DNA from: Fibrobacterota bacterium
GTDB taxonomy: Bacteria; Fibrobacterota; Fibrobacteria; UBA11236
Length of the DNA: 53,007 nucleotides
Direction: 5' to 3'
NCBI GenBank assembly: GCA_947466585.1
Contig: CANIEU010000015.1
Location: 1-53,007 of the forward strand
Shown here: positions 47,819 to 51,016 of the stretch, piece by piece
How the letters are laid out: each line of letters opens with the position of its first letter
How positions within the stretch are numbered: position 1 is the stretch's first letter
Notes under the pieces: generated by a model
The model's database searches: none
The model's input: the letters and a program-made list of their open reading frames with translations, nothing else
Told to the model about the DNA's origin: nothing
Position numbers and translations under genes: made by a program

Positions 47819-48295
47819 TTACTCGGCTTTGGCCTTCGCTTTGGGCTTGTCAGCAGTCTTGGCCGCGGCCGAGTCGGCCTTGGCGGAGTTGCCGCTGAAG
47901 CTCAGCACGTAGGCGAGCACGTTGTCGATCTGCGGCTTCTTGAGCGCGCCCTTCCAGGCGGGCATGAGGGCCGAGAAACCGGAGTTCGCGCCGCCTTCGG
48001 AGATCACCTTGTGGAGCTCTTCCCACGAACGCTTGCTCATGTAAGCCTTATCTGTGAGGTTGCGCGGCTTGGGCTTGAGAGCCGCAGCAGCGACACCGTC
48101 ACCGTGACCGCCCACACCGTGGCAGCTGGCGCAATTGGCTTCGAAGATCTTCTTGCCTTCGATGGCGTCGAACTTCTTGCCGGCGGCGGCGACGATAGCC
48201 TTGGTCGTGGTCGTGGTGGTCTTGGCCGGCTCGGCGCAGGCGAGGGCGGCGGACAGACCGAGGACGAGGGCGGGGGTGAGCAACTTGGAGATCAT
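47819..48295 (-). CDS. Mono-haem c-type cytochrome, secreted
   Basis: A 158-residue class I cytochrome c. A signal peptide ends near LSAALAC/AEP; the LAC could be a lipobox or a signal-peptidase I site nearby. One CASCH motif is at about residue 55, and the Met of LMPAWKG near 110 is the probable axial ligand. The tail is Ala/Lys-rich. It is encoded downstream of the porin-cytochrome gene but separated from it by a large hairpin, so it may have its own transcript. It would carry electrons in the periplasm. Confidence 0.85.
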   Translation of the reverse strand: MISKLLTPALVLGLSAALACAEPAKTTTTTTKAIVAAAGKKFDAIEGKKIFEANCASCHGVGGHGDGVAAAALKPKPRNLTDKAYMSKRSWEELHKVISEGGANSGFSALMPAWKGALKKPQIDNVLAYVLSFSGNSAKADSAAAKTADKPKAKAKAE

Positions 48296-48350
48296 GTAGG
48301 GTTCCTTTTTTGGGGAGACTCGGGGGTAAAATACGAGGTTTGGGATTGCA

Positions 48351-48418
48351 AAACCCCGGTCCTCAAGAAAGCCGCCGCGCTCGGGTGAAGGAGGCCGTTT
48401 TCTCGAGAACCGGGGTTA
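48351..48418 (-). terminator. Large hairpin after the porin-cytochrome gene
   Basis: Arms of about 19-20 bases (48351-48370 with 48398-48418, two mismatches) enclose a GC-rich inner part that can form a second stem. On the minus strand the hairpin runs into TTTTG. It lies 24 bases after the stop at 48443 and probably ends or attenuates the transcript of the cytochrome operon. Confidence 0.7.
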
Positions 48419-48442
48419 AAAAGACCAGAAAGGACGGGAAGG

Positions 48443-49549
48443 TTAGAAAAAGACCTGCGCGCGGCCGATCACCATGTCCTGATTTTCGGATTCGAATTGG
48501 GGCATGGCACGGTTAATGCGGTAGTACAACCCCAATTGCATGAACTGAACGGGGAAATGCTCCACACCCAACGTAATGCGATCCTGACCGTCTCTCTTGT
48601 TGGCGATCGTAGTATTCCTGTCGAAATACTCGTAAGTTCCCTTGAAGTTCAGGCCTTGGTGCGGAAGGAAATTCAATTCGTAGAACTGAGCGGTTTGTTT
48701 AACCGTTGAATCTCCTGCAGCCCTCTCGATGAAGTCCATCTCGGAAAGCAGGGTGAATTTCCCCAAGTTCACGCCCACGAAGGGTCCATAGCGGTCAAAC
48801 TTGTTGGTATGGGCATTCTTAACGCTGGTTCCATAAGAACCACCGACCCGGAAACGCCGATAGGTAACATAGCCTACGGTAGAAGAGCGGTCGTTGGTGA
48901 GATTGGTGACGAGGGAGACCGGCCCGGGTTCAATACCGATTTCGCCGGCCACTGCCGGATTGTTGTAGGTATAGTCGGTACGGTCGCGAATGAAGGCTTG
49001 ATCATCCATCAACCTAAATCCGTAGGGCAGAAGCGTCTTTCCCACTTTGACGTAGCTGTTCAATGGAAGCTTGCGAACCATCATCCAGACTTCGCGGCTT
49101 CCACTTGAAGCACCTACGTGGATATCCGTGTAGAAGGAAAGGAAATTCTTTACGAGCTCCACGTTGATGTAGACGTTCCCTTCTGAAATTCCCAACTGGT
49201 TATTGGAAGGGGCTGATTTGTTTTTCTGGACTGCAGTCTGTTCCATTCGGAAGTTGGAACCGATAGTCACCGCGTCACTAAGTTTGGGATCAAATGACGT
49301 GAGGGCACCTTCACGGCCAGAAAGAATCGCTTCCTGGGTTTGCTTCATCACGAGTTTGTACTGCGTATAGGCCTGCCCATACTCGGTTCTACCACCACCC
49401 CCGATGTTATTCAGATGGCACTGGCTGCATTTGAATCCGGTGCGTACGGCAATATAAGGCTCTGCGTTGACGGCGGCGGAAAACATTGCCAATGCCAAAG
49501 TCGTCCGGACAAGCGTTTTGCGCTTCAAAATTTTGAAGGCGTGAATCAT
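48443..49549 (-). CDS. Fused mono-haem cytochrome / outer-membrane porin (Cyc2-like architecture)
   Basis: A 368-residue protein. A signal peptide ends near VNA (about residue 29); directly after it comes [19 protein letters not shown], with one CxxCH haem site at about residue 41, then [15 protein letters not shown]. The remaining 290 residues alternate amphipathic strands, such as [41 protein letters not shown] and [13 protein letters not shown], each quoted only briefly, and the protein ends in QVFF with the terminal Phe of barrel proteins. The layout equals that of Cyc2 and related fused porin-cytochromes (haem plug in a barrel of about 14-16 strands), although no family membership was tested. 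The start overlaps the end of the upstream cytochrome lipoprotein (ATGA). Confidence 0.75.
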   Translation of the reverse strand: [368 protein letters not shown]

Positions 49550-50040
49550 TGGGGGGCTCCCTTTTCAATCCATCTCTTAATGGCTTTAATCTGATTAGCC
49601 GATAGTCCAGTGGAACTAAACTGAGGCATACGGACACCGTATTTGGGAGTCGTCGTGGAGATCTTTTGGTACAGGTAGCTGCTGTCCAGGCTGCCGGGGG
49701 TGAGCCGGAACATCGGATCTTGGCCGGGCAGTTCAAAAGTCGCGACGCCATTTAAGCTTGCGTAAGAATGCCCGGTGGTAAGATCCAATCCACCGGATGA
49801 TCCGCCGGTTCCACTCCAGCCGGTTCCACCCGTAGCATGGCACCCGATGCACTTTTGGTTGAAAATAGGCTGAATAAGCGCAGCAAGCGTCGTTTCCGGA
49901 GGAACGACAATGACAGTACCTGAGTGAGATGTGTCGTTTCCATCGCTGTCCAAACCGGCGCCGCTGCCCACGGGCGAAAGACAGGCTCCAATTAGCAAGA
50001 CCGTCGCCAGCGCGAACAGCCCGCCCAAAATCTTTTTCAT
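49546..50040 (-). CDS. Mono-haem cytochrome c lipoprotein
   Basis: A 164-residue protein with a lipobox (LLIGAC near residue 20), a Gly/Ser linker and one CIGCH motif near residue 64. The context FNQKCIGCHATGG and the late RMPQ...LSANQIKAIKRWIEKGA are typical of the 'planctomycete-type' cytochrome c domains, with the Met of MPQ as possible sixth ligand. As a lipoprotein it probably sits at the inner face of the outer membrane, between a periplasmic cytochrome and the fused porin. It overlaps the porin gene start in ATGA. Confidence 0.8.
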   Translation of the reverse strand: MKKILGGLFALATVLLIGACLSPVGSGAGLDSDGNDTSHSGTVIVVPPETTLAALIQPIFNQKCIGCHATGGTGWSGTGGSSGGLDLTTGHSYASLNGVATFELPGQDPMFRLTPGSLDSSYLYQKISTTTPKYGVRMPQFSSTGLSANQIKAIKRWIEKGAPQ

Positions 50041-50059
50041 ACGCGTTTCCATGATTCTC

Positions 50060-51016
50060 CTACTTCGTCACTTCGGTGTCTTCGGTGAACAGCCACTGCA
50101 CGATGCCGGCTTTCTTCTGGAGCGAGTGCACGTAGTGCACCAGCGCCCACTTGCGGCGTTGCGTCAATTCCGTCTTCGCCTCATCGTCGAGGGCTTGCGC
50201 CTTCTCGAGCGACGGCTGCGAAGCCAGATAAGCCTTCAGCGTCTCGATCTCGGATTTGGAATACGAGCCGGCCAACGCGTCAGCACTGATTTCCTTGTCA
50301 CCGCCGAAGAGGAAGGCTCCAGCGAACGCCGACATGGGCGTTCCATTCAAACCGGAGTGGATGATGCGGTAAATGCTTTGCGGATCCGAACCGCTCTTGT
50401 ACTGGGTGCGGGTGAGGTTCTGCGGCTTGATGGGATTGCCGGCCGCATCCTTGAGTCCTTTCGACGCGTTGCCGTTGCCCTTGCCCTGCGGGCCGTGGCA
50501 GGTGTAGCAGTCGAGGGTCATGAACACGTTCTTGCCTTCGGCCACGAACTCAGGCGTGGAAGCCGGCGCTTCGGGAATCTCGATGACTGCCGCCGGTTCT
50601 TCCTGAGCGTCGAAATCGGGTGAGAACTTCTTGATGTAGGCGATCACGTCGGTGCGCTCTTGCGCGGTCAGCGTGTGCGCGAAGGACGGCATTTGCGTAC
50701 CGTAGACACCGTTGGTGATGGTCTTCATCAGATCCGCATCGGTGGGGAGCTCGCCCAGGCCGGTGCTGCGGAACTTGTACAGCCCTGCGGTGAAGTCGCG
50801 CGGTTTGGGGTTCAGTGGCTTGGCGCCCTGACCGTTGCCGTTTCCGGTTTCACCGTGACAGGCGGCACAAGCTTTTTGGTACACGGTTTGACCGCGGATG
50901 GCGGAGGCCGCGAACGGGGCTGAGGCCTCCATTGCAGAGGCAATGCCTGCAGTGCTCAAAAGGGGGATTGCCGCTCCCAGAAGGATGGAAACGAGCTTGG
51001 AATTCGGTTTCTGCAT
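50060..51016 (-). CDS. Di-haem class I cytochrome c, periplasmic
   Basis: A 318-residue protein. The signal peptide ends near ASAMEA (about residue 30). Two cytochrome c domains are visible: CAACHG near residue 50 with MPSF as possible ligand downstream, and CYTCHG near residue 180 with TPMSAF. The first domain has the NGNGQGAKPLNPKPRDF type of loop found in many respiratory cytochromes. The C-terminal 80 residues are helical. The stop is 19 bases before the next start, so it leads the operon. It could relay electrons between the inner-membrane chain and the outer-membrane pair. Confidence 0.85.
   Translation of the reverse strand: MQKPNSKLVSILLGAAIPLLSTAGIASAMEASAPFAASAIRGQTVYQKACAACHGETGNGNGQGAKPLNPKPRDFTAGLYKFRSTGLGELPTDADLMKTITNGVYGTQMPSFAHTLTAQERTDVIAYIKKFSPDFDAQEEPAAVIEIPEAPASTPEFVAEGKNVFMTLDCYTCHGPQGKGNGNASKGLKDAAGNPIKPQNLTRTQYKSGSDPQSIYRIIHSGLNGTPMSAFAGAFLFGGDKEISADALAGSYSKSEIETLKAYLASQPSLEKAQALDDEAKTELTQRRKWALVHYVHSLQKKAGIVQWLFTEDTEVTK

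Follow-up and report, generated by a model that had tools for sequence, protein, structure and literature searches.

The window analyzed here is a whole contig of 53,007 nucleotides (C15; CANIEU010000015.1). It belongs to a genome of 2.24 Mb that is 98% complete and has its nearest relatives among uncultured Fibrobacterota. Toward its right end, four genes on the minus strand, here called cytA, lipo, barrel, and cytD, encode proteins with two, one, one, and one CxxCH motifs, respectively (Table 1). The first three are tightly packed: the lipo stop and the barrel start overlap as ATGA, and the cytA stop lies 19 bp from the lipo start at MKKILGG (the second ATG) or 7 bp from the upstream ATG. 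The order, overlap, spacing, and coordinates all agree with the first-pass annotation of this sequence, which had proposed that the cluster could carry electrons across the outer membrane. We evaluated the cytA-lipo-barrel cassette as such a conduit, and on balance we read it as one that would take electrons in, in the manner of the fused cytochrome-porin Cyc2.

Table 1. Features of the cytochrome-porin cassette and of the adjoining stretch of the window
Feature	Coordinates	Strand	Basis
cytA: periplasmic diheme c-type cytochrome, first cassette gene	50060..51016	-	Two CxxCH; two Cytochrom_C/CBB3 domains (Pfam)
lipo: monoheme c-type cytochrome lipoprotein	49546..50052	-	Cytochrome_CBB3 match; lipobox-like Cys; one CxxCH (CIGCH); alternative start at 50040
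barrel: Cyc2-like fused cytochrome-porin, 368 aa	48443..49549	-	N-terminal CSQCH and predicted 16-strand barrel; porin matches; Cyc2 N-terminus profile match
CxxCH codons of barrel (C-S-Q-C-H), residues 41-45	49415..49429	-	Read from sequence; invariant among relatives
cytD: local addition downstream, a periplasmic c-type cytochrome with one heme site	47819..48295	-	One CxxCH; Cytochrome_CBB3/Cytochrom_C (Pfam)
Probable (bidirectional) terminator after cytD: GC-rich hairpin between A and T runs	47772..47793	-	Read from sequence
Start of divergent cbb3 cluster: membrane protein of the DsbD_2 family (cytochrome c biogenesis region)	51564..52220	+	Pfam PF13386, E 2.3e-26
Membrane-anchored monoheme cytochrome c of cbb3 cluster	52335..52868	+	Cytochrome_CBB3; in congener L073 the same gene precedes ccoS-like and ccoNO
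Start of CcoS-like gene, cut by contig end	52868..53007	+	Continues on contig C23, then fused ccoNO and ccoP (Pfam COX1+FixO, FixP_N)

The barrel protein has no family match in Pfam or NCBIfam, and searches of PDB sequences with the protein or its family profile returned no useful relative; cytA, lipo, and cytD match cytochrome c domains in Pfam. An AlphaFold2 model based on an alignment of 12 sequences (mfd23788517fd) gave a 16-strand barrel at a predicted local distance difference test (pLDDT) score of 68, and one based on 25 sequences (m13e30f97e73f) also gave 16 strands, with a pLDDT of 76, a predicted template modeling score (pTM) of 0.76, and most barrel strands above 80. The transmembrane barrel supposed in the first-pass annotation is thus borne out at the level of a predicted model. 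Foldseek matched classical porins, among them OprP (2o4v) and OprO (4rjw), which have also served as modeling templates for Cyc2, a protein that oxidizes Fe(II) (PMC8406198). The protein is just longer than the Cyc2 minimum of 365 amino acids, and its relatives span about 340 to 400. Its CSQCH directly follows a hydrophobic leader, as read from the sequence itself, and is its single N-terminal CxxCH, as in Cyc2. All 25 barrel proteins in the family alignment keep this motif, even at identities as low as about 22%, and neither a Met nor a His is conserved as a distal ligand in the heme segment. A weak second hit with the barrel in the same genome (C13:5302, E 0.08) was dropped, as it lies on the opposite strand of a long open frame (L004 4876-6831). 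In one relative (L085:8368-9419, genome G007), two overlapping frames make up the barrel gene, reflecting either an assembly frameshift or gene decay.

The first-pass annotation had made its proposal depend on homologs keeping their neighbors, and close homologs do: cytA, lipo, and barrel follow one another in the same order at 18/18 close loci with a readable flank, the window included. These loci span four phyla, namely Fibrobacterota (the same genus, a sister genus, and another family), KSB1, Calditrichota, and Neomarinimicrobiota. Because the order recurs at every close readable locus and the CxxCH is invariant in the 25 barrels, the linkage is far beyond chance. Farther away it loosens: a distant Neomarinimicrobiota clade mostly has lipo and barrel without cytA, two barrels (L058 and L059) lack lipo, and a Steroidobacteraceae contig carries lipo and barrel but is cut by the contig start. 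The distribution of the barrel family is patchy, with relatives in 3/4 genomes of the same genus, three of the six remaining family members, 2/82 KSB1-phylum genomes, 1/40 Calditrichota, and 63/199 Neomarinimicrobiota species sampled, most of the last belonging to the distant clade. The fourth cytochrome, cytD, which the first-pass annotation had counted with the set, is ruled out as a conserved member; the window genome is the only one in which it was found next to the cassette, and relatives have no homolog in that position. We found no earlier description of the three-gene cassette, or of its Fibrobacterota or Neomarinimicrobiota members, in the open-access literature.

Other genes accompany the barrel at some loci. 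In several phyla (L048, L051, L052, L020, and L079), it is followed by a diheme lipoprotein that begins with a GPAG-type collagen-like stretch and carries a bacterial Ig-like (Big_2) domain; this protein may be a partner of the conduit at the cell surface. The place of cytA is taken in the distant Neomarinimicrobiota clade (L055, L061, L062, and L033) by a small diheme protein that follows the barrel and is related to the cytochrome subunit of photosynthetic reaction centers (CytoC_RC).

Three features are invariant in the alignment of the lipo family: a Cys at the end of the leader, the CH of the heme site, and a Met-Pro near the C-terminus. We take this Met to be the usual distal ligand of high-potential cytochromes c. 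The spacing of the heme site varies at one position, as CxCH (CSCH), CxxCH, CxxxCH, CxxxxCH, or Cx6CH (L019, L022, L033, L051, L052, and L055), and the CH and the distal Met-Pro are kept throughout. The CxCH form, seen in lipo homologs of two related genomes, would be an unusual attachment site for heme c.

We next asked how the barrel relates to Cyc2, using a sample of Cyc2 proteins picked by their published motif from gammaproteobacterial genomes. Comparison of whole-protein profiles of the two families gave a match probability of 94.9% (E 4.8e-8). The N-terminus alone matched the Cyc2 N-terminus profile with a probability of 96.5% (E 9.7e-10), or 97.4% (E 9e-12) with the wider barrel family, while the lipo and cytA profiles used as controls reached at most 33% and reversed decoys at most 4%. 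In a small test set, the Cyc2 profile hit the window barrel at E 3.7e-6. A 30-residue stretch of the window barrel corresponds to the Cyc2 pattern AxPxFAR[QK]TGxxCxxCHxxxPxLxxFG, and the two families share the outline AxPxxA..TG...CxxCH...FG. The CxxCH of the barrel therefore lies within a segment related to one in which heme binding is proven, and, judging from these profiles, the heme segments of the two families are related by descent. Acidithiobacillus Cyc2, Mariprofundus Cyc2PV-1, and Leptospirillum Cyt572 share with the barrel a single N-terminal CxxCH, a hydrophobic leader, and a 16-strand porin fold.

The barrel family nevertheless differs from Cyc2 in several respects. It has neither FAR[QK] nor PxL, it carries a GGG-x-R insertion after the heme site, it has a near-obligate lipoprotein cytochrome partner, and it occurs mainly in phyla of the Fibrobacteres-Chlorobi-Bacteroidetes (FCB) superphylum. 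At the site of the AXPXFAR[Q/K][T/Y] motif, which lies upstream of the heme site in Cyc2 (PMC8406198), the nine residues of the window protein retain A, P, A, and T, with F, R, and Q/K replaced. An 18-residue stretch spans the PXL site and has no PXL four residues after the CXXCH; the family reads VNxxGGGKRTxFG there. In a midpoint-rooted tree, a branch with 100/99 support splits the barrel family from the 12 motif-selected gammaproteobacterial Cyc2 proteins. Since the motifs differ and this branch separates the families, we describe the barrel as working like Cyc2 without filing it as Cyc2; by sequence it appears to be a sister group, a clade of its own beside the sampled Cyc2 proteins. The first-pass annotation had listed Cyc2 among known conduit types without linking it to this combination, which it could not assign. 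With the barrel placed beside Cyc2, the system can now be assigned in part.

Terminal oxidases recur beside the cassette. The right end of the window (52859-53007) overlaps the right end of another contig of the same genome (G000:C23, L071) by exactly 149 bp in the middle of the CcoS-like gene, and the joint restores a divergent cbb3 cluster of DsbD_2, cytochrome c, CcoS-like, fused CcoN-CcoO, and CcoP genes. Given this exact overlap, the cassette and a cbb3 oxidase cluster are divergently transcribed neighbors in the window genome. In the sister genus (Fibrobacterota g2; L076 and L085), it comes directly after a cytochrome c-bd-like oxidase fusion, several cytochromes, and a diheme-c/EB_dh protein. 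COX1, COX3, and UbiA lie upstream of it in Calditrichota (L020), and COX1 and COX2 downstream in one Neomarinimicrobiota clade (L081 and L082). An oxidase of cbb3, bd-like, or COX type thus adjoins the cassette in four lineages. The window genome has two oxidase loci in its 2.24 Mb, and by our rough yardstick a random gene lies within 10 kb of an oxidase locus in about 2-3% of cases, so adjacency in four independent lineages is well above expectation.

The same clusters of several relatives also encode a small cupredoxin-like protein (HNxH...CDxHxxM), with H, C, H, and M in cupredoxin positions, which by its sequence would bind copper. A cupredoxin profile found none in the window or in the stretches of its genome that were examined. 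In other Fibrobacterota (L076:10374-15820; also L017, L083, L084, and L085), the cupredoxin-like gene lies downstream of the cassette together with a radical SAM/SPASM protein that has a PCP_red domain, and these clusters also hold a large protein with five PCP_red domains, two Usp domains, and one rubredoxin-like domain. One guess is that these genes serve a modified heme.

A parallel in gene content is the rus operon of Acidithiobacillus, cyc2-cyc1-cup-coxBACD-rus (PMC10654088). Relatives resemble that operon in clustering a Cyc2-like barrel with a diheme cytochrome, a cupredoxin, and a terminal oxidase, and cytA, a diheme periplasmic cytochrome beside a cytochrome-porin, is present at all close loci with a flank. 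The cassette differs in its added lipoprotein cytochrome, in its varying oxidase type, in its gene order, and, in the window genome as far as examined, in having no cupredoxin. A second likeness is to Ca. Manganitrophaceae, in which a TO_1 complex (a bd-like terminal oxidase with a periplasmic cytochrome b) accompanies Cyc2 (PMC9040806); the bd-like fusion and diheme-c/EB_dh protein ahead of the cassette in Fibrobacterota g2 resemble this. There the Cyc2 is canonical, and the text examined mentions neither a lipoprotein cytochrome nor linkage in a single operon. With MtrCAB and other porin-cytochrome complexes (PCC), the cassette shares a barrel with periplasmic and membrane-anchored cytochromes. 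In contrast to them, its core has no multiheme partner (at least eight hemes), and its heme is fused to a 16-strand barrel, whereas they run a decaheme cytochrome through a larger barrel, which has more than 20 strands and no heme of its own.

Based on these comparisons, our favored reading, held with modest confidence, is that the three genes form an outer-membrane electron-intake conduit working like Cyc2, with a soluble extracellular donor that is most likely Fe(II). The reductant would hand an electron to the single heme c in the N-terminal segment of the barrel. From there, lipo, presumably tethered to the outer membrane beside the barrel, would accept it, and cytA would ferry it across the periplasm to a terminal oxidase and so toward oxygen respiration; this would be the cbb3 oxidase in the window genome, whereas relatives would use a COX-type oxidase or a bd-like complex fused to cytochrome c. 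We argue for inward flow to oxygen mainly from the set of barrel, diheme cytochrome, cupredoxin, and oxidase in relatives, which is that of the rus operon. Fe(II) is favored by analogy to Cyc2 and because one relative, L020, is metagenome-assembled genome (MAG) J075 from the iron-rich hot spring Jinata Onsen, for which iron oxidation via pioA had been suspected (PMC6759342). The donor may instead be Mn(II), reduced sulfur, or another cell. The conduit of the first-pass annotation thus gains the predicted barrel, the Cyc2-like heme segment, the conserved order, and the oxidase neighbors, while its direction and substrate are ones that we infer.

Several observations weigh against this reading. 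The heme segment is weakly modeled, with residues 20-30 and 42-64 of the barrel below a pLDDT of 50 in a model built without heme. The barrel domain matches the Cyc2 barrel profile with a probability of just 1.5%, or 51% with the wider family; given this weak match beside the strong N-terminal one, we claim common descent for the heme segment and not for the barrels. The absence of both Cyc2-specific motifs counts here as well. The oxidase operon of the window genome is divergent from the cassette and not cotranscribed with it, and no oxidase adjoins the cassette in two congeners, at the KSB1 loci, or in one other Neomarinimicrobiota clade. Finally, the host genome has no RuBisCO and hence no sign of Calvin-cycle lithoautotrophy, for which reason the organism is more likely a heterotroph gaining extra energy than a Calvin-cycle autotroph.

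The direction could also be the reverse, with the same proteins discharging respiratory electrons from the periplasm to a mineral, an oxidized metal, a humic substance, or another cell. The parts would work either way, reductive porin-cytochrome complexes are well known, and some loci have diheme lipoprotein neighbors. An outward conduit seems unlikely to us, however, as the barrel has one heme and cytA two, the core cassette has no multiheme surface cytochrome, the Met-Pro motif of lipo suggests a high potential, and the recurrent neighbors are terminal oxidases and a cupredoxin rather than reductases.

A related question is whether the barrel should just be counted as a diverged Cyc2, in which case the lipoprotein would be an accessory to a canonical iron oxidase. 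Its N-terminal profile, single CxxCH, strand number, and length would all suit this, as would the hit of the Cyc2 profile, and a screen that demanded Cyc2-like N-termini reported Cyc2-like proteins in KSB1 and Calditrichota (PMC9769843). Against these stand the missing PXFAR[QK][TY] and PxL, the separate clade, and two negative results: a Cyc2 profile search of 13 relative genomes, which included no positive control, found nothing at E 0.01, and none of the 10 sampled Cyc2 loci had a lipo homolog within the stretch examined, some flanks being short. We consider this identity quite improbable. Least probable of all is that the barrel serves as a porin for solutes and that its small heme plug, supplied by the neighboring cytochromes, acts as a redox gate, sensor, or oxidant-detoxifying site; the general-porin fold of ordinary size, the lack of a conserved distal ligand, as for an open coordination site, and the generic cytochrome domains of cytA and lipo would fit it, but three cytochromes predicted to reach from periplasm to outer membrane are strictly linked, oxidases and a cupredoxin neighbor them, and the invariant N-terminal residues of Cyc2 likewise include no obvious Met or His ligand, yet that protein oxidizes Fe(II) (PMC8406198).

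Beyond cytD lies the hairpin listed in Table 1 as a probable terminator, whose 10-base loop exceeds the limit of our terminator scan and which is hence missing from its list; the promoter and terminator scans gave counts at chance level. Farther downstream, at 46270-47734 of the window, lie a HemJ-like UPF0093 gene and a YeeE/YedE-type sulfur transporter pair. Within the genus, HemJ, tyrS, and, at least in part, the sulfur transporter stay beside the cassette.

A bolder proposal, which we put forward tentatively and think doubtful as it stands, is that these loci represent a distinct and previously undefined class of extracellular electron-uptake conduit in the FCB superphylum. Such conduits would combine a Cyc2-like heme plug, fused to a porin of its own, with an outer-membrane lipoprotein cytochrome as a needed, fixed third subunit. 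An electron taken up by a Cyc2-type barrel has to be passed on from its single buried heme, and a conserved lipoprotein cytochrome encoded beside such a barrel offers a concrete, testable partner for that step. Cyc2 is also the main gene marker for microbial iron oxidation. Because Cyc2 screens require motifs that the barrel family lacks, they would overlook possible iron oxidizers in Fibrobacterota, Neomarinimicrobiota, KSB1, and Calditrichota. If the bolder proposal is true, the barrel relatives of the sampled Neomarinimicrobiota species would make extracellular electron uptake common in a major marine lineage.

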